Under the pieces are notes generated by a model. The model was not told the DNA's origin, did not search any database, and was given only the letters and a program-made list of their open reading frames with translations. From the NCBI RefSeq assembly GCF_029962835.1, contig NC_080588.1, forward strand, positions 64,504,001-64,568,000: a DNA stretch of 64,000 bases, in the 5' to 3' direction. This stretch comes from Magnolia sinica (Eukaryota > Streptophyta > Magnoliopsida > Magnoliales > Magnoliaceae). This document shows positions 9,211-61,157 of this stretch, piece after piece. The first letter of the stretch is position 1; each line of letters begins with the position of its first letter. The translations under genes and the position numbers were made by a program.

Positions 9211-9724
9211 GACGCGGATTTCCTGTGAAAGCCTTTCGAGGAAGTTCCTGTGTGCTAGAAACTTGGGTGGGGCCCAACGTGATGTTTTTGAGAAATCCAC
9301 CCCGTACATCTGTTTTTTGAGATCATTTTATGATTTGAGACCAAAATTGAGAAGGATCTAAGACTCAAGTGCGCCGCACTAGAGTAAAATGTGGGTAGGA
9401 AAATTCCTACCGTTGAAAACTCTCTGAGGTAGAAAGTGATGTTTATATGACATCCATGCTGTTAATAATGTCATTCCTACTAGGATGAACTGAAAACACA
9501 AATATTAGCATGATTTAAGACTTCTATGGCCCCACGAATATTTCAAATGGATACGTTCAATACTCACATTTTAGGCCTACTTGAGTATTAAATACAACTC
9601 ATTTTTGACCTATTATCCTAAAAATATTTTGTAAAACGGATGGCCGGGGTGGATTTCTCAAAAACATCACGTTGGGCCGCACCCAGATTTCCAGCGCAGG
9701 AACTTGCTTTCGCAGGAAATCCGC
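9211..9724. mobile_element. MITE of the GCGGATTTCCTGCGAAAG family
   Basis: Left end GCGGATTTCCTGTGAAAGCC with AGGAAGTTCCTG. Right end complement GCGGATTTCCTGCGAAAG. The interior shares GTTGAAAAC, GGCCCCACGAATATTTCAA and AAAACGGATGG with the Mutator-like group. Other members lie at 19850-20705, 30055-30690 and 36984-37447. Confidence 0.6.
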
Positions 9725-9966: not shown

Positions 9967-10599
9967 TCAGAACAACCCACGCCCGAAACCGAAACTCCGT
10001 GTGATGACCGTTGGAGCCTCGACCATGAAAGGATCGACCACACCAACAGAATTCATACCCAGGAACGCAGTTGAAGAAGACGCTTCCACCAACATCTCAT
10101 CCGCCCGTTTACGCACCTTCTTCCTCAGTTCCTCCATCGACGCTCCAAATTGCTCCAGCTCATCCAATCTCATATTCTCGATCGGTGATTCCCACCAGAA
10201 CAGATCCTGACCGTTCCTCACCACACAATCGAGCTTAGCCTTCTTCCTCTTCTCCTCTTCCACCTGAAAAGCCAGATCCGTATATTGACGGCTGAGATCT
10301 CGTAACGATGACCCACCACAGGCCAAATTGTCGCGATAGACGAGCGCGGTGGACGGATGATCGCGTGTGATGAACCGATCGATCACGGATTCAATGGACG
10401 GATGGCCAAATGAGAAGGCCTTGCCCGCTTGGGAGAAGATGATGATGGCGATCTCGGCTCCGCAGAGAATACAGAGCTCGCTCGCCTTCTTGAAGAGCCC
10501 AGATCGACGCTACGAGAAGCAGACCTGGCGAGCATCTTCGTTCTGGATTCTTTTGATCTCGATCTTCTGACGGCCTCTGCTCTGTTTCTTCATTGCCAT
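9967..10599 (-). pseudogene. Type I (AGL62-like) MADS-box gene with in-frame stop in the MADS domain
   Basis: Single-exon reading frame of 210 codons from ATG at 10597-10599 to TGA at 9967-9969, typical in length and lack of introns for M-alpha MADS genes, which act in the nucleus in female gametophyte and endosperm development. The MADS domain occupies codons about 8-66: GRQKIEIKRIQNEDARQVCF, then RRSGLFKKASELC and GAEIAIIIFSQAGKAFSFG. The C-terminal half has a coiled-coil-prone stretch (about 95-165). Codon 30, normally Lys between FS and RR, is TAG (10510-10512; one base from AAG). Everything else is open, so this is a recent pseudogene, a null allele, or a sequencing error. Translation could resume only at the next Met, far downstream, which would lose DNA binding. 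Confidence 0.87.
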
Positions 10600-11930: not shown

Positions 11931-12469
11931 GGAATCGGATTGCGTACTGAGTTACTCAGTACGCTTTTATCGTACTGAGTAAACTCAGTTGGGCCCACTG
12001 TTAATGTATGTGGTTTATCCACACCGTCCATCCATTTTTAATGATAATTTTAGGGGTTGATACCAAAATTGAAGTGAATCCAAATCTCAAGTGGACCATT
12101 ACACAGGAAACAGTGTGGAATAATGATTTCCACCGTTGAAACCTTCCTAGGGTCCAAATTAATTTTTATTTGTCATCCAACCTGTTCATAGGATCGCAAA
12201 GACATGGATGAAGAGAAAATACAAACATTAGCTTGATCCAAAACTTCTTTGGCCTCTAAAAAATTTTCAGTGGTAGAGGTTCAATCAAACTGTTTCCTGT
12301 AGTGTGGTCCACTTGAGTATTTAATTTGCTTCATTTTTGGGCTATAGTCCTAAAATTATCTTTTAACATGGATTAACGGAGTGAATAAAATAAATAAATA
12401 ACAGTGGACCCCACACAGTTTACTCAGTACGCTAAGGGTACTGAGTTACTCAGTACGCAATCCGCTTCC
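11931..12469. mobile_element. Mutator-like MITE with palindromic ends
   Basis: 539 bp with ends GGAATCGGATTGCG and, reversed, GGAAGCGGATTGCG. Exact 9-bp duplication CGGATGCAC at 11922-11930 and 12470-12478. Both arms contain near-palindromes of GTACTGAGTTACTCAGTAC just inside the ends. The interior is the common GTGGACC...GTGGTCCACTTGAG repeat. Confidence 0.85.
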
Positions 12470-17393: not shown

Positions 17394-18597
17394 GGGCCTG
17401 TTTGGATTCGTGTATAAGGGTGTATTGTATTGTATTCGGCTACTGTTCATATATATGTTCGATCAATTTCAGAATACATTCAAATCAATATGTCATAAAT
17501 CAATGTTTGGATAGGATGTATTGTTCGGGCAAGTATACAAATTCTTCCTCAGATCAATGTTTGGATACGACATATTAGGGCTGCTTTTGTATATACGTAT
17601 AATATTGATAGCACTTGTAGTAGAGTGTAATTGAGAAATAGCTACGATGTTATTAGCCGCCAGGCCATTTTTCCTCATCATGGTCCCGATCCCGCCACTG
17701 CTGATGTGGCCGCCGACATCGACGGTGGGGCAGACCCCAGCCGAGAAGCCATGAGAGCCGCTCTTTTGCACAATCGTGTAGTAGAGTTTACCGAGTGTTG
17801 CTCCAGATTGGACCTATGCCGTGCTTTCTGCAAGATCAACGGTGATCGAGTGGAGATTGACGAGATCGAAGATGATGAACGGTTGATTGGGGAGAGAGAG
17901 GTAGGATAGCCCTTTGTAGTCTTGGCCCCCACTTTTGATTATGATGTCTAGGTCATGGGTTTTGGAGCAGATGATGGATGCTTGGATGTGGGATGCATTT
18001 GTGGGTGTGATGATGAAGAGAGGTTTTGGGGTTGTGAGGCTCAGGAATCTGAGGTTTTAGATGGAAGATTGGAGGGTTGAGATGTAGGAAGAGGTGTTTG
18101 GAGTGTAGATGAGTTGGGAAGCTGTGGAGGGAGTTGGAAAATGCGAGGAAAGGCATTGAAGGAAGTTATTTTGGATTGGGATTGAAACAGTAGAGGAAAC
18201 TGAGAGAAAGAGGAGAGAGATCAGAGCAAGATATGATGAAGAGGTTGATAGGCCCATTTGTGATGGTTTGATTCTGATCGTTGATTGCTCAAGCTGTTAC
18301 ACATATGGCCGGAACAGCATGTCAGATTCCAGCTGCCAATTGTATCTTCAAAGAGATAGAAAACCTCCAAAGAGATAGTTACGATGTCGCGTGAGAATAC
18401 AACACAATGAAGAGACTGCACTACATGATGCAGTGCCTTCTGAAAACACATTACCGCCATTTGAAAATTTTAATTTGCTGATGTATTCGTGCGCATGGTA
18501 ACCCATGGATGTGAGCTCCAATCCAAATAATGTATAATGAAAAAAATCACCTTTGAAACAATACTATACAATCTGTACCGTCAATCCAAACAGGCCC
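17394..18597. mobile_element. PIF/Harbinger (Tourist-like) non-autonomous element with captured gene fragment
   Basis: Terminal inverted repeats GGGCCTGTTTGGATT at the left and its complement at the right, flanked by the 3-bp duplication TTA (17391-17393 and 18598-18600), as expected for Tourist elements. Length 1204 bp. The interior holds a BBE-like gene fragment. It sits inside an older Mutator-like MITE whose halves are at about 17310-17390 and 18601-18960. Confidence 0.8.
17640..18257 (-). pseudogene. Berberine-bridge-enzyme-like (FAD-linked oxidoreductase) N-terminal fragment carried in a Tourist-like element
   Basis: From ATG at 18257 the minus strand reads as one frame of about 206 codons resembling plant BBE-like enzymes (secreted, flavin-linked oxidases). 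There is a signal peptide (MGLSTSSSYLALISLLFLSV), then [75 protein letters not shown], and HGFSAGVCPTVDVGGHISSG. Two in-frame stops occur, at codon 67 (normally Gln) and codon 148 (normally Trp). The FAD-attachment His of the RSGGHDYE-type motif is Gln112, while the Cys of GVCPTV is kept. Similarity stops near codon 206, so the substrate domain and C-terminus are absent. The fragment lies wholly inside the element at 17394-18597. Confidence 0.82.
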
Positions 18598-19849: not shown

Positions 19850-20705
19850 TCGGACGCGGAAGGGGATTTACTACGAAAGCCTTTACCATGAAGTTGGCAT
19901 TGTGATGTTTGTTAGAAATTTATGAGTGGGATCATTTTAGTACATAAGGCCAAAGAATAAGCCTGATCCAATACTAAAGTATGACGAAAGCACGAGCATT
20001 AAACGTTGAAATATTCATGGGCCATAGAAGTTTGAATCATACTAATATTTGTATCTTCAGTTCATCATGATAGCACTGGTGTTACGAGCGGAATTAATGG
20101 CATATAAACATTACCATAGACCCTAACCACCTTTTTCTTTGACGAGGGCCACTTGAGTTTTGGATCCTGATCATTTTGGTATAAAATTCTAAAATGATCT
20201 CACAAAATGGATGGATATAAGAATTTCTCACAAAAGTCACAATGCCCCGGCCTAGGTTTAGAGTGCACAAACTTCTTGCAAAAGGCTTATGCAGTAAATT
20301 TGACTCCGCATAGGGATTAATTGCAAAAGGCTACATGTGAGACATTCATAAGTTTATTCGTTTTTTGAGATTATTTAAAAACTTATAATAGAAAATAGTC
20401 GGATCCAATGATCAAGTGGGTTAAAAATGTGACTAGTGAACAGTATGGATGTCAGGTAAACATCACATGACTAGGGAGGTTTCAATAGTAGAAATTTCCT
20501 AACCCACCTCTTCTCAAGGTGGCCCACTTTGAGTATTGGATTTTGCTAACTTTTGAGCTCAGGTTCGAAAATGATCTCAAAAAACGGATGAGCTGGGTGG
20601 ATGACTAAAAAAACATGAACTGTGGACGACTAAAAAAACATCACGGTGGCCCACCTAGGTTTCGGGAACTTCGTGCGAAAGGCTTTCGCAGGAAATCCGC
20701 GTCTA
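19850..20705. mobile_element. Two GCGGATTTCCTGCGAAAG-family MITEs upstream of RPS29-A
   Basis: First about 19850-20310, second about 20325-20705, ending AGGCTTTCGCAGGAAATCCG. The same pair, partly truncated, lies upstream of RPS29-B, and the truncation point marks the left breakpoint of the duplication. Confidence 0.6.
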
Positions 20706-20802
20706 TCCGCGTTCACGAGGTGTGACGTTCGCCGGACTACAGTACCCGTATGTCGGACTTAAAAAGACAAAGATACCCTCAACCAAGTAGCCCGGAAGCC
20801 GC

Positions 20803-20891
20803 TATAAAAGAGGTCGGGATTAGGGCTCTTTCTCTCAGCAGCCGCGCTTCCGAACTGTGATTCTAAAACTAGGGTTTTTGAAGAGCGGAAG
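20803..20891 (+). promoter_or_regulatory. RPS29-A core promoter and 5' leader
   Basis: TATAAAAG lies at 20803-20810. It is followed by a pyrimidine-rich CTCTTTCTCTC stretch near 20827-20836, about where transcription should begin, and by TAGGGTTT at 20870-20877, the reverse of the telo-box (AAACCCTA) that is common in plant ribosomal-protein genes. The same order is kept in copy B, which supports functional constraint. The start point itself is inferred. Confidence 0.7.
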
Positions 20892-25380
<4,489 letters not shown>

Positions 25381-26199
25381 GAAGACAAGTACTGGGTAGA
25401 CGATTTTGGTAGATGGAATCCAATGGAGGCAGAAAAGGCAAATATTTTTGAGTATCTGTTTAGTTGGGACTTGTTTTCTACAACATGCTTAAAAACTATC
25501 TGGGTGGGGTTGTTTGCATACCCCAAACATGCAGGAACTTGCATACTTATCTGAGGATCTTATAGGTTGCTTTCTCTAAATATTTAATGATGCCTCTTCT
25601 AATTTAGAAACTCCGTGGTTATCCATGTTCATCTGCTGAACTTGTTTTGATCTCACAAATAAGCCATTGGAAGTGGCCTTAAACTGTGGTCGCCAAGAAT
25701 CTGCAAGGGAACCTCCAAATCTGCACCTGCTAAAGGTGTTTGTTATACGCATCTGCAACCATTCCAGCATGCGTTTTCAGATGGGTCCCCCTTTTCATGT
25801 GCTCTGGCCCCAGATTTTGCCTATGCTTGCAGGTTAGCTATGCTTAATCTTAATCATGGTGTTGTGGCCAACCCTTTTCAACAACAATCAATTAAAACTT
25901 GTGAGAATGTGAGAGTACTGAGGAGTGAAATGGCCTGATTAAAGGATATGATAGTGCAAACCATCTGATGAACAGTCTGGGTCTGGCCATTGACACATGT
26001 TGCTGATGGGCTAGGTAGGTGGTCTTTTTGTCCATGTGAATGCTTCACCATAGTTATGCCCAAACCAAGCATTTTGGGAGATGTTAGTGGGTTGCTTGAC
26101 TTGTGAAAAGGCATGTTTTTGTTTTGTCGTGGAAAAGCTGAAATGGCATTTGGTTGTGCTAGTTTGTGGGCCCAGAGATTTATTTTTACTTGATGGTGT

Positions 26200-26560
26200 C
26201 CTCGGGAGCGGATTAGGATGTGGTGAGGCCCTTACTGTGGGGCCCACATAAAAAATGAAGCAGATCCAATTATCAGGAGGACTATACCATAGGAAACAGT
26301 GGTGATTTGCTTGATAAGGACACATAAGCCTGGATGGAAGGAAATAGCAAATATCAGCTTGATCCAAAACTTTTGTGGCCCATTTATCGTCAATCACCAC
26401 TGTTTCCTATGGTATGGTCCACCTGATAATTAGATCTGCTTCATTTTTTGGATAATGCCCCAAAATGATCTGGAAAAATGGATGGAAAGCATGGATACAG
26501 AACATACGTCAAGGTGGGCCCTAGCGTCAGTGCTGCACCGTCTTGTGCTAGTCCGAGGTA
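26200..26560. mobile_element. Mutator-like MITE 3' of RPS29-A
   Basis: GGGGCCCACATAAAAAATGAAGC to AAGGTGGGCCC, with paired CACTGTTTCCTATGGTATGG half-sites forming a long inverted structure. The matching sequence in unit B (about 37450-37650) is partly deleted. Confidence 0.5.
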
Positions 26561-27342
26561 TTACCTATCCCTACTGTTTCGGGTGCTAAGGTCCTCCTGG
26601 AAATTTAGATCTGCCTAGCTCTTAGATACACGTCTTAAAGGAGCTGTTGGAACTAATGGCATGGAGTAGATGTGGCATAGGGCATCACATGGGGTCTCCA
26701 CGGCTTTTTGTTGCACGGGGCTTCCTAAGAGGCTTCAAGAGAAGGAAGAAAAGGCTAAAAAAAGTTGTTTTCCACACCCATATTGACTTCTTGATGTCAA
26801 GAAAGAGTTTGGCCTTTCTGGCAACCCTCTAGATTGCAAAATGTTCCACATTCAACCTACATGTGAGCTCACTGGATGAAGGGGTTTGGTTGAATCCAAG
26901 ACTATTGGTATAGCCAATTAGGTTGGTTGAATAGGCATCATCTTGATAGGGATTAGGAATAGAGCCCGGCTAACAAACTATGGGGTCATACTGGGCAGTG
27001 TGGATTTAAAATCCTGTGGAATCATATAGATTTTGAAACCGGTGAAATTGAGAGGATTTTGCAAATCAGACGAGTTGGGAATGCCAAAAGGGCTCTTTGG
27101 AGGTATTTTGAAGGAATCAAAATCTAAAAAAACCTTCAAAATTCTTGCTACCGAGGATCCCACATAATCCACGCTGCTGCCAAACAACTCTTACAAAGTG
27201 GCAATAGTCAAATGTTGAAATCTTTAATAGGGTGACATAGTCAAACTTCTCATCTCCATCTGATTCGGGTCCAACGGTGATAGGAAGTTGATTCCCCCAA
27301 TACAGCCTACCATCAGACCATTTATTTATGGAAAGCTAACGG

Positions 27343-27412
27343 AACCAGGGGGATTGAACCCTGGATCACTTACACTAACTACATTGTCTCTACCCACAGT
27401 GAAGAGAACTGG
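27343..27412 (-). mobile_element. Fragment of the second SINE family
   Basis: Minus strand GGGTAGAGACAATG and CAGGGTTCAATCCCCCTGG match the box regions of 41246-41391. Unit B keeps only the CATTGTCTCTACCCA part near 37930. Confidence 0.5.
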
Positions 27413-28344
27413 CCCTTCATTATTGTGAGAAACTCACTCTCCACATAATTTCACCACTCTAGACAACTTCCATTTGTGCCAGGCATTCTCTATTTGCATT
27501 TGATTTGATCTGAGCACTAAGGACAACAATCCAAGTAGAAATCACCTTTGGTTACAAGAACAGTTCAATCCCTCCCATTTAAAACAGTCAGTTTAGAAAC
27601 TGAGGCACAAATAAAAATAGAAACAAAAATAAACAACAATGTAGAGATAAAATGGAGAGCAGTGCAAGGAGAATTGCAATAGACTTGACAATCCAGGAAG
27701 ATTACCTGGAAAAGGAACATGATATTTGGATCCTGTGTGTGGAGATGATTAAAAATTTAAGGCAACCGTGCAAGAGAAATGAGAAGGACATTCATGTGAA
27801 GGCAGATTAAGGGGAAGATTAGCACACACAAGTGCCAATAATGGCCATTCACTTAGACAGGGTCGCCAAAAATCACACTGGTACACTCAGGCGCGGTGCA
27901 AACCTGTATGAGGACAATGGGTTGCTCAGGAGGAGCAAAAGGCATGGTCCACCTGATGAGTGGACTGGCTTTATTTTTTTTTATTTTAGCCAGGGCATAT
28001 TCAAGACAGTTCCCACCTGATGAATGGCTCCATTCTTGCATTTCTCAATCAGCATTCACTCTCAAATCTCATTGGCATTTCTCATCAAGCAAGCGTATTA
28101 ACAGAAAGATAAAAAAAGGTTCTTTGTTATTGGACAAGCTTGTGTACATGATAAAGAAGCTTAGAAAGAGGTATGCCATGCCAGAAATAATTACAGCAGC
28201 AGCTACAATACCTCTCTCAGCTGCAAGCACAGATCATACAAGTGTTTGTACATGGAATTCAAGGCATATATGGGTAAAACCCTCTTTTGGGATTTAGAAG
28301 GTCAGCACGCTATTTGCAAGTCAAAAGTGCCTGCCACCGCACCT

Positions 28345-28889
28345 TCAGCTGTTGTTCACAGGACGTCTTTTTTACTTGCCTTGAACCAGGCTTAGGAGGA
28401 AGTCTGTAAATATGTGCTCGTATTCCGGCATCTTCCCATACTCTGAAATAGTTTAAGAAGGCTCTTTCAGAACCAAACAGAATGTGTGTATGAGTCCACA
28501 CAATGCATGCGTACAAGTGAGACAGATGAGATAATGTGGACCCCAACTTTTCCTGCGAGAACAGTAAAAAATCAATGTAATGATAGTGCAGTAAAAAAGT
28601 GGGATTGTCTATACAGATGAGTGGATTATGTGAGCTGCTATTTACATTCATCACTCATCATCTTTTGTACACAAGTGTCCAGATATGAGATTGACAATCT
28701 CTATTCAATGAAATATTTCCAACCCATTCTTCTTCTTCTGGGATAAGTACTACAAGAATTACCATAACAGTTGGATAAGTTCAAATCAGCCACATCCTGG
28801 AGTATCAATTGGCGGTTGTGCACATGCTGTATAGCATCTGGTGGGTCAAAGACTGGACTGTAACTTACAGGATGCTTTAGCCTCTAATC
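28345..28889 (-). pseudogene. ITPK 3' relic in duplication unit A (exons 10, 5-stub and 4)
   Basis: Homologue of the ITPK 3' part. Exon 10 equivalent is 28345-28442, with an earlier in-frame TAA at 28372-28374 and GAG in place of the GGG glycine codon at the splice junction. About ten bases of exon 5 remain near 28543-28552. The exon 4 equivalent is at 28763-28889, with a changed splice acceptor (AG to AA) and six extra bases in two small insertions. Everything between the unit-B positions of about 39235 and 43152 (exons 6-9 and most of 5) is missing. No promoter or N-terminal exons are present. It is a by-product of the duplication, not a gene. Confidence 0.9.
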
Positions 28890-29008
28890 TTTTGAAACAT
28901 AAAAAGAAGAAAAAGAACATTACAGATGCACTGATATTTCAGTTTTAATAGGAAAATAAATAAATAAATTTAAGCGATAGATGATTAAGGGGAGGTGAAA
29001 TTTCAGCT

Positions 29009-29405
29009 CCCTCAGGTTGGCCGATCTTGACCTAACCAACATCCAGTCAGCCCACGATTCACGCCAAAGATCGTGGAAACCAGCTCCAAATGGTTCTCCT
29101 CAATATCCTAGCTGAAGATCCAGGGGAATTTGTCGCGCGTAAACTCAGAATCCTGTTAGGATTCTATCCCCGCCAAAGTAGGGATGAACGCCCTATACGC
29201 CATTGCCTTTTCTTGCCTATAAATGAGAACATCTCCAAAAGTGAGAAGCACAATCTCTAGCCCTAAACCTTTGACACTCAACTAGACCCAAATTCCTGAC
29301 TTAGGCATAAGAGGGTCCCCGACATGAGCCAAGGTCTTCTTTATTTGTTCTTTGTGCATGTTCATGAGCCAAGGAAGGCTAACCAGATTTCTGCATCAAC
29401 AGAGC
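29009..29405. mobile_element. Gypsy-type LTR fragment, unit A only (fossil)
   Basis: Runs to GATTTCTGCATCAACA, the complement of the LTR start at 1262, and includes CCTGACTTAGGCATAAGAGG and a TATAAATGAG promoter-like stretch. Absent from the equivalent place in unit B (about 43610), so it arrived after the duplication. Confidence 0.65.
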
Positions 29406-30054
29406 CCGAGAGTAAGAATGTTCTTGACACAGAAGAATAACTATAACATAAATATTAATAATCTAATACTTAGATCTTTGGGTGCCGGCAACATACGCTA
29501 GAGGAATCTAAACCATAAGATGTTCATTCAAGAAGACCCAGGCATGAAAGGAGCATGCTTGAATGGCTAGAGTGACAAAGGCTTGAGGACTTCTTGAAAC
29601 TTCCCTGAGTTAATTCAAAGACATGAAATTTCAAGGTCTGCTAGAGATGACAACCACACTTGCTAACATCGATGCTTATAGACTTCCATTTTTCATTTTC
29701 TTTAATTGAAGCTACTTACTAGACTTTCTGAGATAAGCCTAAGAAGTTCAATGATCCTGAGAAGGAAATGAATTTCTTAAGTTGTCAAGAACCAATAACG
29801 CTACCGATGAATAATAAATGTCCTCTTGGACCCAATGGCATGCTGCAATTGAAGGCATGCATTCATACTCTCATGGAACTCTAGGGAATTATGATATAGC
29901 TTCATATGACCTCATGAGAAAAAGACAAACCGGGGTATGCACAGACAGAAAAAATGCTATTTTACAAGTCAATCGGCTTGTGAAATAGGATAGCACAGGT
30001 CATTAGAGGTTGCATTTGGTAGCATTTCTATGAGACACACTTGTAAGAATTCAC

Positions 30055-30690
30055 ATCACCACTTGAGTCTTGGATCCTTATCACTTTTGATCTCAAGTCC
30101 TAAAATGAGCTTAAAAAGCAGATGGACGGGGTGGATTTGTCAAAAACATCGCGGTGGGCCGAAGTGCAGGAACTTCGTGGGAAAGGCTTTCTCCTGCAAA
30201 AGCCACTCGTAGGAATTTCCTGCGCAAGTTTTTGGAAAATATTCTTCGTTCATTCGTTTGGCGAGATCATTATAAAAAAAACTTCGTTTGGCGAGGTGGA
30301 TCGAAAGCTAAAGTAGGCCACACGAGAGGGAAAATTTTGAAAAGAAATACATACCGTTGAAACCTTCCCGGGATCCACCTTGATGTTTATATGCCATCCA
30401 AACCGTTTATAAGGTGATTAATGCAGGGATGAAGGGAAAATACAAAAAATTTAGCCTGAAACAAAGCTTTTATGGTCCTAAGAATGTTTCAACGGTTCTC
30501 ACTGAATCCCTACTATTTCCTCTCGTGTGGCCCACTTGAGTCTTGGATCCACCTCGTTTTTTGTTTCTTGTCCTAAAATTAGCTTGCAAAACGGATGAAA
30601 GGAATATATTTCCCAAAAACATGGTGGTGGGCCCCACCCAGCATCCTTGTGGATGAACTTCCTGCGAAAGGCTTTCGCAGGAAGACCGCG
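30055..30690. mobile_element. Truncated MITE pair upstream of RPS29-B
   Basis: Begins abruptly in the right half of MITE 1, then the second MITE (about 30225-30690) ends AAAGGCTTTCGCAGGAAGAC. The flank after it (GTTCACGAGGTG) equals that of unit A. Confidence 0.6.
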
Positions 30691-30732
30691 TCAATCACCG
30701 TTCACGAGGTGCGACGTTCCCCGGACTAAAAT

Positions 30733-31250
30733 GGAAACGGATTCACTGCTCCTCTGCCACCAGCCGGTCGGTGCTCTGTGGGCTCCACTATGATGTATGT
30801 GTTTCATCCATGCCGCCTATCTATTTTTATAGATCATTTTAGGCATGAGACAAAAAATTATATATATTCCAATCTCTAGTCGACCACATTACAGGAAAAA
30901 GTGTTGAATGAGTGTCGACCATTAAAAAATTTTTGAGGGCCAAAAAAGTTTTGGATCAAGCTTATATTTGGTTTTTTTCCCTTCATATGGGTCTGTATGA
31001 CCTGATTGGATGTCAAATAGACAGTACATTGGGCCTTAGGATGATTTTAATGGTGGATATCCAATCGCTATTATTTTCCTATGGTGTGTTCCATCTGAGA
31101 TTTATACCCATTAAAATTTGGGATCAAGCCTTAAAATGATCTGTAAAAATGAATGAACGGAATGGATGAAACACATAAATCATGGAGGGGCCACATAGAA
31201 CCAACCACCAGCCACCGGGCTGATGGCAGGGGAGAAGCCAATCCATTTCC
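30733..31250. mobile_element. Mutator-like MITE in RPS29-B promoter
   Basis: 518 bp with ends GGAAACGGATT and (reverse) GGAAATGGATT and further matching CTCCTCTGCCACCAGCC-type arms. Exact 9-bp duplication GACTAAAAT at 30724-30732 and 31251-31259. The homologous spot in unit A (about 20734) is empty, confirming a discrete insertion. The 9-bp duplication and G-starting terminal repeats point to the Mutator superfamily. Confidence 0.85.
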
Positions 31251-31317
31251 GACTAAAATACCCCTATGTCTGACTTAAATAACAAATATACCCTCATCCA
31301 AGGAACCCGGAAGCCGC

Positions 31318-31404
31318 TATAAAATAGGTCGGGATCAGGGCTCTTTCTCAGCAGCCGCACTTCCGAACCACGATTCCAAAACTAGGGTTTTTGAGGAGAG
31401 GAAG
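31318..31404 (+). promoter_or_regulatory. RPS29-B core promoter and 5' leader
   Basis: TATAAAAT at 31318-31325 and TAGGGTTT at 31383-31390, with the pyrimidine-rich start region between them, match copy A closely. The conserved segment upstream of the TATA box is only about 60 bp long before it meets the MITE at 30733-31250, so any distal elements have been moved about 520 bp away. Confidence 0.7.
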
Positions 31405-35972
<4,568 letters not shown>

Positions 35973-36983
35973 GAAGACAAGTACTAGGTAGACGAGCATC
36001 CGATGGAGGCAGACAAGCAGATTTTGGTAGATGGCATCCAATGGAGGCAGAAAAGGCAAATATTATTATTTTTAGTGTCTGTTTAGTTGGGACTTGTTTT
36101 CTACAACATGCTTAAAAATCTCTGGGTGGGGTTGTTTGCTTACCCCATGCTTAAAAACTTGCATACTTATCTGAGGATCTTATAGGTTGCTTTCTCTAAA
36201 TATTTTAATGATGCCTCTACTGATTTAGAAAGCCCGTGGTTATCCATGTTCATCTGCTGAACTTTTTTTGATCTGGTGAATAAGCCATTGGAAGTGGCCT
36301 TAAACTGTGGTTGCGATGGTACGGAGCTGAGAATCTGCAAGGGAACCTCCAAATCTGCACCTGCTAAAGGTGTTTGTTATACGCATCTGCCACCATTCCA
36401 GCATATGTTTTCAGATGGGTCCCACTTTTCATGTGCTCTGGCCCCAGATTTTGCCTATGCTTGCAGGTTGGCTATGCTTTATCTTAATCATGGTGTTGTG
36501 GCCAACCCTTTTCAACAACAATCAATTAAAACTTGTGAGCATGTGAGAGTACTGAGGGAGTGAAATGGTCCAATTAAATGATATGATAGTGCAAACCATC
36601 TGATGAACGGTCTGGGTCTGGCCATTGACACATGTTGCTGATGGGCTAGGTAGGCGGTCTTTTTGTTCATGTGAAATCTTCGCCATATGGTTATGCTCAA
36701 ACCATGCATTTTGGGAGATGTTAGTAGGTTGCTTGGCTTGTGAAAAGTCATGGCGTTTTTGTTTTGTTTTGTTTTAGAAAAAGCTGAAATGGCATTTGGT
36801 TGTACAGCTTGTTTGTGGGCATGTACCTGGGGAGAGGGAAGAGAGTATGGTAGGCGGCCAACCTTCAACAGAATGTCCAGAGATTTTTATTTCCCCCAAC
36901 TGGAGGGTGTCCCCATCGCCAGCAGATTAAGTGAGACTGTATTCTGTATCCACACTATCCACATTATTTTAAGGCATTAGGAG

Positions 36984-37447
36984 GCAGATTTCCTGTGAAG
37001 GCTAATGCTGGATTTCCTGCGAAAGCCTTCGTAGGAAGTTCCTGCACTGGAAGACTAGGTGGGGCACACTGTGATGTTTGTGAGAAATTCATTTTGTGAC
37101 TCCATTTTAGGACTTGAGACCAAAAGTGAGGAGGATCCAAGACTCAATTGGGCTGCACTAAAGGAAAAGGTAGATAGGGAAATTTCCACTGTCGAAATCT
37201 CCCTGGGGTGAACAGTGATGTTTACATGCCACCCATACCGTTCATAATGTCATTCCTACTGGGATGAACTGAAAACACAGATATTAACCTGATTCAAAAG
37301 TTCTGTGGCCCCACGAATATTTCAACTGTGGACGTTCAATCCTCACATTTTGGGCCCACTTGAGTATTCAATCTGGCTTATTTTTTGCCAAAGCCCCACC
37401 TAGGTTCCCAGCGCAGGAACTTCCTGCGAAAGGCTTTTGCAGGAAAT
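36984..37447. mobile_element. GCGGATTTCCTGCGAAAG-family MITE, unit B only
   Basis: Starts GCAGATTTCCTGTGAAGGC with the terminal word repeated once more at about 37010, and ends CGAAAGGCTTTTGCAGGAAA. Absent from the homologous place in unit A (about 26230), so it inserted after the duplication, apparently into an older MITE. Confidence 0.55.
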
Positions 37448-39036
37448 CAAACTCCTTACCATTAAAAACTTGTTAGTGGGCAGCTTAATGTTTCGGTGGT
37501 GTTTGTTTGCCCCCTCTGTTGATAAGGTCACATAAGCCTGGATGAAAGGAAATAATAAATATCAGCTTGATCCAAAACTTGTGGCCCATTAATGGTAGTC
37601 ACCACTGTTTCCTAAGGTATGATCCACCTGATAATTAGATCTGCTTCATCTTGATAGGGATTAGGAATAGAGCCCCGGCTAACAAACTATGGGGTCATAT
37701 TGGGCAGTGTGGATTTAAAATCCCGTGGAATCTTGTAGATCTTGAAACCGGTGAAATTGAGAGGATTTTGCAAATCAGACGAGTTGGGAATGCCAAAAGG
37801 GTTCTTTGGAGAGATTTTGAAGGAATCAAAATCTAAAAAATCTTCAAAATTCTTGCCACCGAGGATCCCACATAATCCATGTAGCATCTGATTCATGTCC
37901 AACAGTGATAGTGCCATTGCATGCACTGCATTGTCTCTACCCACTCATCTAACAAATGGGACACAACTGGAACTCTTGACTATTTACAATGGGATTTCAT
38001 GTAATAGTGACATTGTAGAGGTATTTCATAACAATGGGATTTCATGTAATAGGGACATTGTAGAGGTATTTCATTACTTGAGGGCTGATATTTCTTACAC
38101 TTTAACACACTCTCATTCCCCTACTCTATTATATACAAAGTGGAGAGAACTGTCCCTTCATTATTGTGAGAAACTCACCCTCCACATAATTTCACCACTC
38201 TAGACAACTTCCATTTGTGCCAGCCATTCTCTATTTGCATTTGATTTTGATCTGAGCACTAAGGGCAACAATCCAAGTAAAAATCACCTTTGGTTACAAG
38301 AATAACTAAGAACAGTTCAATCCCTATCATTTAAAATAGTCACTGTACAAACTGAGGCACAAATAAAAATAAACAACTATGTAGAGATAAAATGGCCAGC
38401 ATTGCAATGAGAATTGCAATAGACTTAACAATATCCAGGAAGATTACCTGGAAAAGGAACATGAGATTGAGAATATGAAAATTTTTATGGTAACCGTGCA
38501 AGAGAAATGAGGAGGAGCTTCATGTGAAGGCAGATTAAGGGGAAGATTACCGCACACCAGTGCCAATAATGGCCATTCACTAGAAATCACACTGGTACAC
38601 TCATGCGCGGTGCAAACCTGTATGAGGACAATGGGTGGTTCAGGAGGAGCAAAAGGCATGGTCCACCTGATGAGTGGACTGGCTTTATTTTTTTTAGCCA
38701 GGGCATGTTCAAGACAGTTCCCACCTGATGAATGGCTTCAATCTTGCATTCACGCTCAAATCTCCTTGGCATTTCTCATCAGGCAAGCATATGAAAAGAA
38801 AGATAAAAAGTTTCTTTGTTATTGGACAAGCTTGTGTACATGATAAAGAAGCTTAGAAAGAGTCATGCCATGCCAGAAATAATTACAGCAGCAGCTACAT
38901 TACCTCTCTCAGCTGCAAGCACAGATCATACAAGTGTTTGTACATGGAATTCAAGGCATATATGGGTAAAACCCTCTTTTGGGATTTAGAAGGTCAGCAC
39001 GCTATTTGCAAGTCAAAAGTGCCTGCCACCGCACCT

Positions 39037-42000
39037 TCAGCTGTTATTCACAGGACGTCTTTTATAATTGCCTTGAACCAGGCTTAGGAGGAAGTCTGTA
39101 AATATGTGCTCGTATTCCGGCATCTTCCCATACCCTGAAATAGTTTAAGAAGGCTCTTTCAGAACCAAACAGAATGTGTGCATGAGTCCACACAATGCAT
39201 GCGTACAAGTGAGACAGATGAGATAATGTGGACATATCGAAAGCATATGAGTGTTGTGGTCTGATCATTTTTGAAAGGAGAACGTTTATTTATTTATTTA
39301 TTTTTCCTAACACTGCAAATGTATATGCAATAGGGACCCCATACACAGATCACACGCTCTGTAACAAGCTCATAAACTCAATATGGTATCAAACAGGTTT
39401 TGATTGAAGCAACTAACCTATGAGATGGAAAAATTGCTTGGCTATTATCAAACATAGGGGTGTAGTTTCCACAAACAAAGGTGTATTGATAATATTATAT
39501 AATTGAGAATATCTCTGTCATCCTCACGAAAAAAGGGCCCGTTTGGATGCACTTTCACGAAAAATGCCTACTTTTTTCTGTCGACTTGATAAAACCAATC
39601 GACGACTACATTTTCAGTCGACTTGATGATAACCAATCTGATTGGTTTTTGTTTAGTCCGCATTTTAGCACCTATTTTGCGGAGCAGTGGATGAAACAGG
39701 GTTTGTGAAAGTGCATCCAAATGCACAACACAAAGTGAAATGTGGCTAAAAACACTGTTTAGGTGTCAAATGCCCTTTTTGAAGGTGCCTCAAGCGAGCC
39801 CTAAAAGAGTCTTTCATTTGAATGTAAGCAAACATGGACTTTTGTTTCCAATACTTGGGGCATGATGAGAAATGGATATGCACCATCCACTTCCAACATT
39901 TGAGTTACAAGATAGACATTGCTGAAGAAGATGGTAGGAATTTAATATTCTCAAATAGGGTTTCACTCACCAGGGAAGTAGTTGATGTCAATGACATAAA
40001 AACGGTCTCTGGTACCAAGCTCTCGGATTATATCGAGGTTGAACAGTCGTAGTCCCTACATATATCAAATAAACAATAAAGAAATTTGATTACATGAATG
40101 CTACAAAGCGTGAGAGGAATCGACACACGAATGCACCACAATGATGTGAGAATTCTAATAAACTTACCAGTTTACGACGTAGCTCCTTTGCAAGCCTCTC
40201 GAGCAAAGGTCGTGGTGGAAGCTCTGTTGCATAAAGCTTCAAAATAAGAACATATGATTTGGAAGCTGAAAGGACCCTAAACAGTCTACAAGCTTATCAC
40301 AGGAAAATCTAACTACAATATGCTGCAACACAGTAAGTCAATTTTCTAATGCATTAAGTGCCATTTTCACACCTGCAACACTTGGGTCAAGATCTGCACC
40401 ATCGGCACAAGCTGCCGCACAAGAAACCCTTGGAAACTGATAGACACCTCCGTTATTCAAAAGTTCATGTTTATTGACATCAGGTAGGGAAAACCGTCGA
40501 ACAACCTTTATAGCTTCGCCAACAATATAAACCTTAAACAGAAGACCACCTGAAATTGGACAAAATGAATCTTGATTATTAAAGATGCAAAGCACTGACA
40601 TGATGAAATTGATGGCATATTTGGACTAGTCATAGTATACCATGATTAACAAACTCCTGTAGTACCAAGGGAGGATCGAGTTTTGATAGGGCGAACTGAT
40701 CGTATGCAAGAGAGAGTTCATGTGATTTTGCACTTCCATCCACAACCAATGGTTTTGCAACTGAAACAGAAGGGAGCTGATAAATACACAAAAACTTCCT
40801 CGTAAAAAGCATCACAAGAAAAAAGAAAGAAGCCAATCAGGTTAGGATTCTGGACAGTGTTTGTGTTGCCAACTTATGTTCTTGGGCATTAAATTGGATT
40901 TGGAGGCTCCTGTAGTTACATTCAAAAGATTTCAGGGGATTTCAGGCTTTTAAGGAATTTCAGTGCTTGGGTTTGGCCTACAGGATTAACACACTATAAT
41001 AGGAAGACCAGACTTGCTCCTGAGTTGTGATGTCGCCCAAAACAGTTATTTCTATACACATGAGCACACGTCTCCATGCATTTATCTTCAAATATAAAGC
41101 TTGTAGAATTCACTCTCTTAACAACAAGGTCACAAGAGCACACTGCAGCAACACAGAAAGTATGCTTGCAAAGAAAAGGGGTCATCAACAAGACTATGCA
41201 AGAATGTCCTTACCTTCTTCAAGGAATCATCAGTGTGCCAGATGAATTTTTATTTTTTTTTTCTTCTTCTTTCTTTCTTTCTTCTTCTTTTTTTCCTCGT
41301 TGCTTGGAAACTTCCAAGGTGGTGAGGTTTACAAGTAAGACAACCAGGGACCGAACCCTTGACCACGTGCAGACACTACTGTCTCTACCAATGTGCCAGA
41401 TGATCTGCACACTGATGCTTTCAGATTAAAAGGGGTCTAGTCCTTTTCCTGGGATAAGATGCAAAGTGTTACAACCTCAACATTCCAGCAAGATGTGACA
41501 AAGATGGCCATCTTTTAGGTATAAAACAGGTGTCGGCAAAAGGCAACCCTCACCTTCCCATGTTTGAGAATCATTCATGGTATTCCAACTGACTTCATTC
41601 AAAATACACCTTTAAAAAAAAGAAAGATACGGGCAAACTTGGAACAAATGACAACATTTACTAGTAATATGAACAATAGATCCAACAGATAAGCTTAGGC
41701 TGTGTTTGTATTCTAGATCAAATTGAATTGCAATAACACAATTTAACAAAGTGGCAATAACCCTAGTAGGTTAGCCTCGCTCCATTGATTATGAGAGATT
41801 AGCTTCCAACTAGCAATCCAGATTGCTCCAAGTCTAACTTGAAATGCATAGAATTGCAACTGGGAGCATGGTTTTAAGGCTTGACCAGTCCAATTGATGC
41901 AGGGACATGTGATAACCTAACCCTAGATGCATGTATAATAAGGTTAAATAATATTCAAATAAATACAACAATTAACTAACTGTTTCCAAACAAAGGGATT

Positions 42001-45000
42001 AGGTAAATCTCAACCCAAAGATGAGGTTATTCCGTCAGGATCATGCACCTTACCATAAGATCACGTAAACAGTAAAAAGGGGGGAACTCGGGATATGAGG
42101 ATATCCCAGATCTAGCATAAGTCAGTCCACTAGTAAGCTTGGATCTGATTCTACTGACTAATCATCCATTTTTTCTGTTCGAACTAGAAAGGGGTATCTC
42201 GAGAGAAACGAAATGGGTGAAGGATGAGGGGTTCGAGATGAAGAAAGTACAAGTCCTTTGTCGTCAAAAGAAAAGGAGGAGGATGATTTTTACCTTTTCC
42301 TGCACCTCGAAGATCTTAGAAAGAGGGAAACCTGAAATCGGGGTGGAATCCTCAACACCCAAGGGCCAATCCTGAAACCCTAATCTTTTTAATAAAGAGG
42401 AAGAAAATAAACGAATTCTTATTCATTCAATAATAACGAAAATAGGGTTCCTCACAACGTTTATATAAGCTATGGAAAAAGTAAAAGTGCACTAAAGCCC
42501 TTGAAAACAAGAAAAATAACAAAAAAAAAGAACAATAAAGAAAGTTGCAATAAAGCCCTTGAAACAAGAAAAATAACAAAAAAGTCCAAAACTAAAACAC
42601 TCATATGATAGGGTGTGAAATCCGACCCGTGGATTTATGGTCGGGGTGAACACCTGTGTGGTAGGGTGTGAAATCCAACCCATGGATCTATGATCGGGGT
42701 GCGTTCATGCCGCTCCTGCAATCGTAGTGCGTCGAAAAGTGGGTCCGATAGACCCATCATCCATCCACATCAACTCCTCCGCTCCGGTACTCTGTCGGTG
42801 ACGCCTCCTCCTTTGGTACACTCTAAAGGGCGCACCACTGATGTCCACATCACCAATACAACTTGTTTGAGTTGACTCATATTTGATAGTACCCGATTCG
42901 GTTTGGTACCATGAGTCACACCCCCTTGCGACTCGACTCGGGGCCAACAAGTTGATCAGTATCTAGGAATTGGTTGTCACAACTAATCAAAATGTCCCTC
43001 CCATTATTAATAGTTTCCCCATATTTGATTGAATTATTAGTCCAACTAAGCATCCAAAAGCACCTTACCTAAGGGTAGTGTTAGCCCCGCTTTAGTCACC
43101 GCATCAGGAATAGATGATGGGTCTTTGGTGATGACAAGTTGCCTAGGAACACCAACTTTTCCTGCAAGAACAGTCAATAATCAATGTAATGATAGTGCAG
43201 TCAAAAAGTGGGATTGTCCATACAGATGAGTGGAATAAGTGAGCCGCTATTTACATCCATCACTCATCACCTTTTGTACACAAGTGTCCAGATATGGGAT
43301 TGACAATCTCTTCTCAGTGAAATATTTCCAACTCATTCTTTTTCTTCTGGGATAAGTACTACAAGAATTACCATAGCAGTCGGATAAGTTCAAATCAGCC
43401 ACATCCTGGAGCATCGATTGGCGGTTGTGCACATGCTGTATAGCATCTGGTGGGTCAAGGACTGTAACTTCAGGATGCTTTAGCCGGTAATCCTTTGAAA
43501 CATAAAAAGAAGAAAAAGAACATTACAGATGCACTGATATTTCAGTTTTAATAGGGGAAAAAAAAACATAAAGAAATAAATGATTGAGGGGAGGTGAAAT
43601 TTCAGCTCCAAGTTAGGAGCCTGAGAGTAAGAATGTTCTTGACACAGAAGATTAGCTATAACAGAAATATTAATAATCTAATACTCGATCTTTGGGTGCC
43701 AGCAACATATGCTAGAGGAATCTAAACCATAAGATGTTCATTCAAGAAGACCCAGACATGAAAGAAGCATGCTTGGATACCTAGAGTGAGAAAGGCTTGA
43801 GGACTTCTTGAAACTTCCCTGAGTTAATTCAAAGACATGAAATTTCAAGGTCTGCTAGAGATGACAACCACACTTGCCAACACGATGCTTATAGACTTCC
43901 ATTTTTCGTTTCCTTTAATTGAAGCTACTTACTAGACTTTCTGAGATAAGCCCAAGAAGTTCAATGTTCCTGAGAAGGAAATGAATTTCTTGAGTTGTCA
44001 AGAACCAATAGGGCTACCGGTGAATAATCAATGTCCTCCTGGACCCAATGGCATGTTGCAATTGAAGGCATGCATTCATGCTTCCATGGATCTCTAGGGA
44101 ATTATAATCTAGCCTCATATGACCCCTTGAGAAAAAAAATACCGGAGTATGCATAGACTGAGAAAAAGGCATATTTTACTAGTCAGTCAGTTTGTGAAAT
44201 AGGGTAGCACAAGCCATTGGAGGTTGCGTTTGGTAGCATTTTTAGTCGACGCAACATTTAACAAAAAACTCATCAAAAAACAAGGAACCTATGCTAATAA
44301 AAGAGGAGGAGGAGGAGGAGGAGGATCTACATGTGAGCAGAATATAGGACTCGAGATTCAAAGAGTCAGGAATACTATGGCTACTTCTCTGGTGCAAATT
44401 CATAAACTCAGACAAATTGAAAGTAAAGCACCAAAGCATTGCATAACTTCAGGGTTTGTTTGTAAAAGAAATCCCCCCAAAATCAGGATTACAACTTAAT
44501 CTAATCTTGGCAGGCCCCATGTCTTGTTAAGAAGTGCTTTGCCCCAATTAATCACAACCTTGGAACATTTTACTTCTGTTAGAATGTACAGATGTTGTGA
44601 TTAAGTGCTCCTATTAAAATGTTCGGAAGTCGTGACTATGTGGGTGAAAATGCCGTTTAACACACCTTAATCTGAAATCAAGGACATGAACACTTCCATA
44701 ATTAGAATTTTAGGTGTTAATCCTGATATTGGGGGATTTCCTTTCCAATCAGAACCTTAACCAGAACCTAGAACTAGAAATAAGAACCATCATTAGAGCC
44801 TTAACCACAACATAGATCTAAAAATAAGAACCATCACTGGTCCATCTTGGCCATTCATATACCAGAAAACCAACTTAAATACTACATGCACATGAAAACT
44901 ATCAAAAACAAATCCTCATCCCTGCATACGTCGTGAAAGACGAAAATTAATGTGAAGGTAAAACCTCAGTCTGATAAACTACCTACCAACAGTGTCAGAG

Positions 45001-48000
45001 CTACAGTAGCTCGTTACTGAAGGTAAAACCTCACTCATTGGAATTCTCAAGGCTTTGATCTAAAAAATCTGATCATGGTTCATAATGGAGGAAAGAGCAG
45101 CTCTCTGAAAATATGTTAAATGCAAATGAGTTTTGGGCTCTAAAAGATCAATATACAATGAGTGCTTACACTTCATATTTCGTAGTCTGCAAGAAATGAT
45201 AACATTGTAGCAACACAACACAATATCTGCAGAACAGAGAATTTGAAATCAAGAGATGGGTCCTTACTCTTGCTCCGGTGGTAGCCTCTCAGGAGTTTCA
45301 ACACCTGGTCAAGGGTTTGAGTACCCATAGGTGGTGAAATCCCACTATGGCGTGCGTTTGTGGGGGTGTGTGTGCGTGTGTAATAAAAAATAAAAATAAA
45401 TAAATAAATAAATAAAAATAAAATCAAGAGATCTATGCGAAGCATGCATGGGACTTAATCTTCAAGGTGTTCAGACTGACTAACCTCGAGAATCTGGCGC
45501 CACTCCTTTCCTGACAACTGGAGAAGCCAAAAAAATATAAAAATTATCACATGAATTTTTTTTGGTAACCTATGGTTTCAATCGAGGTTATGGTCCTTGA
45601 TAGAGTAGAATGGCAGAACAGGATTTGCCTAGCCAACCCCAAATAGTTGTGATAGGGCTTAGATGATGATATGGAATTTTAGAAAAGTTGATCAGTCAAT
45701 TGCTCAACTGAGGTCTGAAACAACTTGCATTCTAGACCTCATCAAGTCCAAGTAAAGTTTCATAATATTGAATGTTGGAATTAAATAGAATAGGGAAAAA
45801 GCTGGGGTCTCTACTGACCTTATGTAAAACAATGTCGAAAGGACCTTGATCTGAAAGAGGCCTGTTGTGGTCGATCGCAACAAATAAGATCCCCTTCTTC
45901 CTACATGGATTTTTTGACAGTTGGTCAGTAGTAGCTAGTAGAATCATCAAGCAGGAGCAGGAGAGAGTGTGGGAATTTTGACCGAGAGTGGAATAATTTA
46001 GTGTTCCCAGTGCCAAGAAATTAAAAGGCAGGACAGTGGGAGCTCTGCCACATGTAGAAAAGACTTGACCACATTCATTGCAATGACTCCCCCACCCCCC
46101 CAAAGACAACGCAGTTCTTTTATCAGCAAACAGTATATTTTAGTAACCAAACCAGTGCAAAGTAATAAAAACTCAAAAGCCAAGACAATCAGAGCCCAAT
46201 CAGTCATCAAGAACTCTGCTACAAAGGGTCGGGCAAAAACAACTATGCGGCATAGGACGGGACGTGCATCTAACACTACACATAGATGCCAACATTTTGA
46301 CTTTAACAGTTACAGTTCAGAAATAAAAATAGTCAGGAACTAAAAATGCAATCTTCTTAAGAATAATATCCACATAGATGCAGAATCTTATTTTCTGGTG
46401 GACCTTCAGATGGTTGGCAGCGTTGGGGGTGTTTTTATGATAATGCACCCCAGTCAACTCTTGATATTTATGACTGACAATGAAATGTGAGGAATAAAGA
46501 TATATCCCTGCTAAGGATATTCTGTGCCAAGAAGACAGTGAAGCATCTTCAAGGCACATGTGCAAGTGTTTCACATGTGTGCGAGATAAGGCACGCCCAT
46601 TAAGCAGGCCTGCTGAACCTGATAGAGGAAAAAGGAAAGGCTGGTCCACTCATAAGGTGGACTACCAGTGTACAATAAAATGAACACCAATCATCCACAA
46701 TCAGCATACATGGCCCACCTGCAGAGGGGAATGACTTTTTCTTTTCTTTTGCTATGGTAAACTAGGATTGAACTCAAGCCCTGAATGAACTGAATTTTCG
46801 AGCCAGAGCAGGTCCACAGTGGGGGCCTGCCTAACAAACAGCCTGATCTCATGTATGCGTACCACTCTCATCCGTGCATAAATATCCTTCATGTCTCAGT
46901 TCTCTCAAAAAGAGCAGAAAAAGTCATGTTTATGAAGACATTAGAAATCAAATCAATGTCCCTTTCAAGCGGACCCTTGTAAGCATACGCCAATAGTCCG
47001 TCTTCAAAGAACTACCACACATTCTTGATGTTGTCGACACAAAATTTAAGAAATTTACAATTGTATCAGACCAAGAAAAACGTAAAACAAGTGAATTTTA
47101 ATCCGAAACCAGATCCCAATGTCAATGTATAACATTTTTTCTTTCCTCACGGAACAAGGACGTCAAAAATTGATTTTTTTTTTAATTTCATGTCCAAGCA
47201 CGAGGAAGAATATTCCAATTTTTGAAACACAAAGATCAAAAGATTCTTGACACCAAAAATGATTCCATATACCAAAACAAGCATCTTGGAGAATTACATG
47301 AACTGCCATTCCACATAGGCTAGGTACAAGTTTGCCACTCCCATATAGTGGCAACTCATCCACCCATCATGTGGCACACATGCAAGCCAATCCAGACCAT
47401 CCACATCAAGGGCCTTGTTGTGTATGGAGCATAGCCATAAAATATCACTGATTGGACCATCCTAATCATCCAACTCCTGATCATCAAATAGAATAGTTAA
47501 AAAAGAAAAGGGTCAACTATCCACATTCAACGGGTGAAATCAGATGATTATGATCATCAAATTGATGTTACTTGGGCTATATGCTCCATCCACAATTTGG
47601 CCCATTATTTGGATATTTTGGTTGAAATAAATACACGACACATGTTCGATGGACAATTTGCAAACTGCAAGCTTTTACATGATTAGTCTAGCTGTTTAGA
47701 AAGTCAATATGTAAAAATGAAATCGACTGTGAAAAAAAATAAAAAGAGCAGAGGATTCTTATTTCATGCCACAAGAAAATCTGAAAGACACCAAATTGAG
47801 CAGGACACGGCATATTTTGCCAAAATTTTGATTTTTCTTTCCACTAAAATTCCATTTTAACTGAAATTCCCATTTTCTGATGACTCTGTATGGTAAGCAA
47901 AAGAACAGGGAAAGACTGAGCTGGGCAGTTTGCACCATTTCTTAAACCATAGCAACTCAATCTACTGTACATGTGAATAAATGCAAGTCAATCCAGGCCA

Positions 48001-48750
48001 TCCAAAACCATCAGCCCATTCTAGATGGAGCATATCTCCATAACCATCTGATCTCCAGCCATCAAATGGACATTAGAAAGAAAAACTGCCAGAGGTCCAA
48101 ATCGGAGGAGTTCAAACCATCCGATCGGTCCAATTTTCAGGCTATGCTCCATCCAAGACAGGCCCAATAATCAGTCGCCTGATAAACAGAATCAGTTAGA
48201 GAAATTATGTTTAACCAGAAAATGCGGTCTTATCACTGCGATTTTCTACCCATAACTTATCCACAGGAACGTGCACTAGATCAACGGTCCTGATCACTAG
48301 AAATGCTTGCCACAGGCACCTTGAGGACCGAAACCCATGGATTTTCCATGCAGTGTCACATTCCACTGAAAATAATACCAATCAGCAGACAATTAAAGAG
48401 TTTCTACTCATAATTACAGAAAAAAATTACATATTTTAATTTTTTTAAAGAAAATTTTCTTTACATACATACATACATACTTATAAAGCTTGAAATTTTC
48501 TTTAAATACATGCATGCATACATCTAGAGCTTGAGATTTTTGGAAATTACCGAGCCAATCCCTCGAGCTTAGGTTGCAAGAAGCTCTTCGCCTTCTTCGA
48601 CGTCAGAGCGTATCCCACAACGAGCTTCTGCTGTGGCGGAAATCCTGCAGCGGAGATCGCATACAGTTGCTGCTGCTGAGGATTCCGATCGTTTTCCTTC
48701 TCTTCCTCATTTCTGAGCGAGATTTCTCCCTTCAATCTCATCAAAAACAT
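39037..48750 (-). CDS. ITPK: Inositol-tetrakisphosphate 1-kinase / inositol-1,3,4-trisphosphate 5/6-kinase (ITPK2/3-like)
   Basis: ATP-grasp kinase of inositol phosphates in the phytate pathway (family knowledge). Ten exons, read high to low: 48551-48750, 45819-45900, 45485-45517, 43372-43492, 43069-43161, 40641-40760, 40373-40549, 40168-40223, 39971-40055 and 39037-39134. All introns are GT-AG, phases agree, and the spliced CDS is 1065 bases (354 residues plus TGA). Recognisable parts: [20 protein letters not shown] in the N-terminal domain, [38 protein letters not shown] (about 208-218), [11 protein letters not shown], and [17 protein letters not shown], where D317 and N319 should bind Mg2+. 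A second Met at codon 4 (MRLKGEIS) matches the usual ITPK2/3 start as I remember it, so translation may begin there. Exon 1 adds a QQQQ tract. Convergent with RPS29-B, with stops about 3.1 kb apart. Introns hold SINEs and other repeats. Confidence 0.95.
41246..41391 (-). mobile_element. Second tRNA-derived SINE family, ITPK intron 5
   Basis: On the minus strand: CATTGGTAGAGACAGTAGTG (box-A-like), GGGTTCGGTCCCTGG (box B), then a GAAGAAG-type tail. Exact 12-bp duplication TGTGCCAGATGA at 41234-41245 and 41392-41403. Distinct in sequence from the other SINE family. Confidence 0.8.
41870..42990. repeat. Unclassified insertion in ITPK intron 5 with internal tandem pairs
   Basis: Contains two local duplications: a 58-bp period (AAAGCCCTTGAAAACAAGAA at 42493 and again at 42551) and a 53-bp period (TAGGGTGTGAAATCCGACCC at 42609, variant at 42662). 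Sequence style is LTR-like, but I find no defined ends. Confidence 0.4.
44302..44325. repeat. (GGA)n microsatellite
   Basis: About eight GGA units in ITPK intron 3. Confidence 0.8.
45258..45420 (+). mobile_element. tRNA-derived SINE in ITPK intron 3
   Basis: Same family, ending in an (AAAT)n tail. Exact 12-bp duplication AAATCAAGAGAT at 45246-45257 and 45421-45432. Opposite in strand to the host gene. Confidence 0.85.
47370..48175. repeat. Paired dispersed repeat in ITPK intron 1
   Basis: About 47370-47610 and 47970-48175 share CAAGCCAATCCAGACCATCC/CAAGTCAATCCAGGCCATCC, TGGAGCATA and CTCCATCCA words. A related inverted version lies in both RPS29 first introns (about 21680-21960 and 32200-32480). 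Probably an old MITE family. Confidence 0.45.
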
Positions 48751-60981: not shown

Positions 60982-61157
60982 TGTAACACCCTGAAAATCG
61001 GGGGTCGTGCATACGCTCGACTCCCGAGTTCCCGGGGTCACTTGTAATTGGTTTTCATTAATATGCGATTAATCTATGTTTAAATGCGCAGCCTGGAGTT
61101 CCTGGAACATGAAGCACAAATGCACCTGCCGACTGAAATGAAAGAGAACTAGCATAC

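Follow-up and report, generated by a model that had tools for sequence, protein, structure and literature searches.

The window analysed here, a stretch of 64,000 nucleotides from Magnolia sinica, is plant DNA, to judge from its genes, and it has 0 ambiguous bases. Its central part is occupied by a direct tandem duplication, each unit of which (A and B, Table 1) contains an RPS29 gene encoding ribosomal protein uS14, and an inositol-phosphate kinase (ITPK) gene runs convergently from the opposite strand. The ITPK gene joined to unit B is complete, whereas its counterpart in unit A is broken.

Table 1. Features of the duplicated region and its flanks, in coordinates of the window.
Feature	Coordinates	Strand	Structure or basis
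Two adjoining MITE-family elements left of unit A	19850-20703 (about 19850-20303 and 20310-20703)	.	ends judged by inspection
Unit A of the direct tandem duplication	20666-30030	+	BLAST matches to unit B in colinear order; global alignment with it
RPS29/uS14, copy A	20892-25380	+	exons 20892-20953, 24241-24340, 25372-25380; spliced frame, GT/AG introns; 56 aa, N13S; Pfam PF00253, E=3e-15
ITPK pseudogene remnant in unit A	28345-28889	-	exons 4 and 10; in-frame stops
Point in unit A where 3917 bp are deleted (B 39232-43148 missing)	28539-28540	.	about 2 bp common to the ends
Sequence at the A/B junction, source not assigned	30031-30058	.	28 bp; no other match in the window
MITE-derived junction sequence	30059-30654	.	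truncated arm (30059 to about 30200) and a second element; arm identities to unit A counterparts 0.69, below the best other family copies
Unit B of the direct tandem duplication	30655-44244	+	BLAST matches to unit A in colinear order; global alignment with it
518-bp MITE, unit B only	30733-31250	.	9-bp target duplication GACTAAAAT at 30724-30732 and 31251-31259
RPS29/uS14, copy B	31405-35972	+	exons 31405-31466, 34742-34841, 35964-35972; spliced frame, GT/AG introns; 56 aa; Pfam PF00253, E=6e-16
Predicted complete ITPK gene	39037-48741	-	10 coding exons (48741-48551, 45900-45819, 45517-45485, 43492-43372, 43161-43069, 40760-40641, 40549-40373, 40223-40168, 40055-39971, 39134-39037); spliced frame, nine GT-AG introns; 351 aa

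The tandem duplication claimed in the initial annotation is borne out by a long, colinear, direct diagonal between the two units, which is present in a BLAST self-comparison of the window, including the region 19000-45500 that had been singled out for this check, and in a global alignment. Among the matches listed, seven plus-strand blocks follow each other in the same order in both units (A 20735-24433 = B 31251-34935; A 24427-26171 = B 34999-36820; A 26311-26447 = B 37519-37652; A 26935-27171 = B 37643-37879; A 27395-28541 = B 38136-39233; A 28540-29010 = B 43149-43609; A 29402-30030 = B 43617-44244). The similarity is lengthened leftward by a 74-bp match (20666-20739 with 30655-30728, 89% identity), which in unit B stands 527 bp away from the remaining matches, the gap being made up of the 518-bp element and one 9-bp copy of its target. 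The copied segment was roughly 12-13 kb in size.

Global alignment of 20666-30058 with 30655-44280 gives 8192 paired columns at 92.6% identity, and 32 of the 33 windows of 250 columns lie at 0.88-0.98, the last one, which extends past the breakpoint, being at 0.81. For the core count, 274 columns were dropped beforehand, namely everything past A 30030 and three stretches whose alignment is unreliable owing to insertions (A 26172-26310, 27175-27394, and 29011-29401); the remaining 7918 contain 557 differences (311 transitions and 246 transversions; K2P 0.074). With assumed neutral rates, this would correspond to an age of about 3 to 23 million years. The duplication is old and of an ordinary kind, and it raises no new mechanism. 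The longest identical run between the units, 145 bp at the 3′ end of ITPK (28209-28353 and about 38901-39045), is reached in 26 of 2000 simulations of uniform divergence; either constraint in unit B or gene conversion might account for it.

Each unit carries insertions that the other lacks. The 518-bp MITE of unit B corresponds in unit A to an empty site, GACTACAGT at 20735-20743, where 7 of 9 bases are alike; a target duplication of 9 bases is the usual size for Mutator-like elements. Another MITE of unit B, at about 37005-37456, is absent from the corresponding place in A. Unit A alone has about 497 bp at 26441-26938 and about 390 bp at 29011-29401, the ending of the latter giving, from its sequence, the impression of an LTR fragment. 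Many degenerate foldback MITEs of related families are scattered through the window, for example, among the matches listed, at 9211-9724, 11931-12469, and 37010-37387, and several MITEs have a near-palindromic end motif.

The gene joined to unit B is predicted to encode a complete ITPK. Its product matches the Pfam families PF05770 (E=3e-92) and PF17927 (E=4e-39) and the PDB entry 7tn5 (E=1e-84), the structure of a plant ITPK1 from maize; the pre-ATP-grasp and ATP-grasp domains characteristic of such proteins are thus both present in one frame. Exons 1-3 are situated outside the duplication, and exons 4-10 belong to unit B; the complete ten-exon frame confirms the full gene proposed at this end. 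In contrast to the plant enzymes, the copy in unit A is a dead remnant: exon 4 has an in-frame stop and 6 inserted bases, exon 10 has a premature stop, and a 3917-bp deletion took exons 6-9 and all of exon 5 except 13 bases. It had been described as a headless 3′ half of the gene; headless it is, but only exons 4 and 10 and those 13 bases are left. Since the segment absent from A includes coding exons that the intact ITPK uses, it was much more probably deleted from A than inserted into B. Taken together, the stops and the loss of exons characterize the piece in unit A as a pseudogene.

The two units might be regarded as uncollapsed haplotypes or another assembly artefact, given that the evidence is the assembled window sequence. 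This is, nevertheless, very improbable because of the 7% divergence between the units, the MITE with a 9-bp target duplication found only in B, and the 3.9-kb deletion found only in A; moreover, there is no N in the window, and a haplotype would be expected to carry a complete ITPK of its own.

Both RPS29 copies have an open three-exon frame of 56 residues with a full-length S14p/S29e domain, in agreement with the two intact genes reported earlier, and both keep a TATA-like element and, just 5′ of the start codon, the motif TAGGGTTT, the telo box. Like other members of this family (PF00253), both copies are full length, and they are closest to plant-type PDB chains. Copy A has Ser at position 13, where Asn is found in four and Lys in one of the five PDB homologues displayed (5 of 6 matches). 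Of the four coding differences between the copies, two are synonymous, N13S in A is the only nonsynonymous one, and the fourth affects the stop codon (dN 0.0075, dS 0.060). With an estimated 128 nonsynonymous sites, the probability of a single change at most is p=0.0009 under neutrality of both copies and p=0.058 under neutrality of one, which supports constraint on at least one copy and only suggests it for both. One could imagine that selection has maintained the copies as two different proteins, the Asn13 and Ser13 forms of uS14, and that a MITE-associated duplication thus gave rise to ribosome variants, with gene conversion, as read from the 145-bp identical run, still acting between the units; such a scenario seems highly unlikely.

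The left end of the duplication had been placed at about 20145/30055, inside a MITE, and here the initial annotation has to be corrected. What is found at this place is similarity within a MITE family (20149-20381 matches 30059-30278 directly, with 65% identity over 237 columns), and the arms are 69% identical, as against 93% in the units. Among 13 MITE arms, hand-picked from the larger set of window matches and compared pairwise (52-81% alike), both E1a-E1b and E2a-E2b are 0.69 identical, while E1b is 0.81 like arm 9373-9208 and 0.80 like arm 37153-37007, E1a is 0.76 like the latter, and comparison with other arms gives 0.76 for E2a and 0.75 for E2b. The arms differ at 42 of 137 (E1) and 48 of 154 (E2) sites versus 557 of 7918 in the units, the E2 count even taking in the last 38 bp, which belong to the duplication. 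Since they are more divergent than the units and closer to other family copies, the left arms are separate members of the family, and 20145/30055 is, therefore, rejected as an end of the duplication. That the left MITEs are orthologous, with methylation-driven transitions masking it, was ruled out: transversions alone (18/137 and 28/154 versus 246/7918; Fisher p 5e-7 and 2e-13) run at about 4 to 6 times the unit rate.

Similarity attributable to the duplication starts at about 20666/30655. Of the MITE pair left of unit A, only the last 38 bp are within the duplicated stretch, and the element ends at the same base in both units (20703/30692). The case demonstrates that similarity within a MITE family can be mistaken for a duplication breakpoint.

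At the right end, the BLAST similarity stops at 30030/44244. The latter position is located in intron 3 of ITPK, between the end of exon 3 (45485) and the start of exon 4 (43492), as had been claimed (at about 30027/44241). A match search found no copy of the junction MITE family in 44245-45230, to the right of this breakpoint; the same flank has a weak inverted repeat of its own at 44448-44760.

Between the units lie 624 bp (30031-30654), which are mostly MITE-derived and have no copy of the 93% kind in the left flank of unit A. The first 28 bp have no other match within the window; by eye, they might continue the similarity to intron 3, but 2133 of 5000 shuffles score as high against the intron beyond 44244. 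The MITE that follows begins internally, without a left end, and, by the arm identities, its sequence up to 30654 is not a copy of the MITEs that precede unit A. No target-site duplication was seen at the junction by inspection.

It is likely that a break occurred inside the MITE cluster at the junction. With a probability of roughly 0.6, the units arose by illegitimate end-joining, in which such a break was joined to a break in ITPK intron 3; no simpler account presents itself. In an ancestor, a segment that carried RPS29 together with the downstream portion of the convergent ITPK was duplicated in direct tandem; its right break lies in intron 3 and its left break, we infer, in the MITE cluster upstream of RPS29. 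The ends were probably joined without long homology, by end-joining or template switching, and the join would have left the 28 bp against an internally cut MITE arm. Later, the units would have diverged by about 7% and gained their separate insertions, unit A would have lost most of its headless ITPK through the 3.9-kb deletion and point stops, and both RPS29 frames would have stayed open. Two facts speak against end-joining. First, no source of the 28-bp sequence was found in the window. Second, in both units a pair of adjoining MITE elements terminates at the same base ahead of the common flank, which would be odd for unrelated elements; this common end suggests that MITEs at one unit later underwent exchange or conversion.

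Repair or unequal exchange involving the repeated MITE had also been put forward. A break in the MITE cluster probably stands, but a simple MITE–MITE exchange does not agree with the absence of a family copy in the right flank and the internal start of the junction MITE. A more elaborate form, which we consider unlikely, assumes unequal crossing-over that paired a MITE upstream of RPS29 with one located on another chromosome in ITPK intron 3 and so created a hybrid MITE at the junction; the intron MITE would either have been missing on the other parental chromosome or have disappeared from B afterwards. Consistent with this, most of the junction is MITE sequence, the terminal 38 bp of its element and the flank match unit A at 89% and the body does not, as expected of a hybrid, and locally close copies do exist (30060-30160 and 9371-9271, 87% over 101 bp). 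When compared with a hybrid full-length repeat, however, the junction element shares its right end with unit A and differs in the body, but its left end, cut at 30059, is missing; the same repeat has not been found at both ends of the segment, with none in 44245-45230, and most copies are today poor substrates for homologous exchange, to judge from the 13 chosen arms. The exchange model would be rescued if the right breakpoint had a MITE that is heterozygous or has since been lost.

Reversed-ends transposition of Ac in maize makes direct tandem duplications (PMC3744419). Alternative transposition of DNA elements with reversed ends is conceivable here too, as direct tandem units and transposon-derived sequence at the junction are common to both cases. 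Unlike in the maize case, the junction family was not found at the right breakpoint (44244), and the element at the junction is truncated internally; since the element ends that this mechanism predicts were not found at the breakpoints and no target duplication, likewise predicted, was noticed on inspection of the junction, such an origin is very unlikely.

Plant tandem direct duplications of the partial-gene type have a partial gene copy at the junction that later decays, and the present one resembles them in its direct orientation, its one partial gene copy at the junction, and its later decay; nothing of note sets it apart, the left break here being in a MITE cluster. A search of the literature found no paper tying MITEs, unequal crossing over, and a truncated gene to a tandem duplication breakpoint. 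The locus clearly illustrates that a tandem duplication can yield a second complete copy of one gene together with a dead piece of its neighbour.

Scans of the window for tRNA genes (bacterial code) and for Rfam families (gathering threshold) gave nothing. Outside the duplication, a 180-aa frame at 9970-10509 on the minus strand matches the SRF-TF (MADS) domain (E=2e-16, profile positions 15-48 of 48). A minus-strand piece at 17496-17813 matches Pfam FAD_binding_4 (E=2e-6) and resembles a berberine-bridge-enzyme-like gene; the adjoining frame 17817-18056 has no Pfam match. Finally, pieces of a Copia-type retrotransposon are found on the minus strand at 59809-61068, with Pol_BBD in 59809-60459 and Retrotran_gag_2 in 60635-60853; a further, weak match to Retrotran_gag_2, in 60865-61068, stays under the cut-off of that family.
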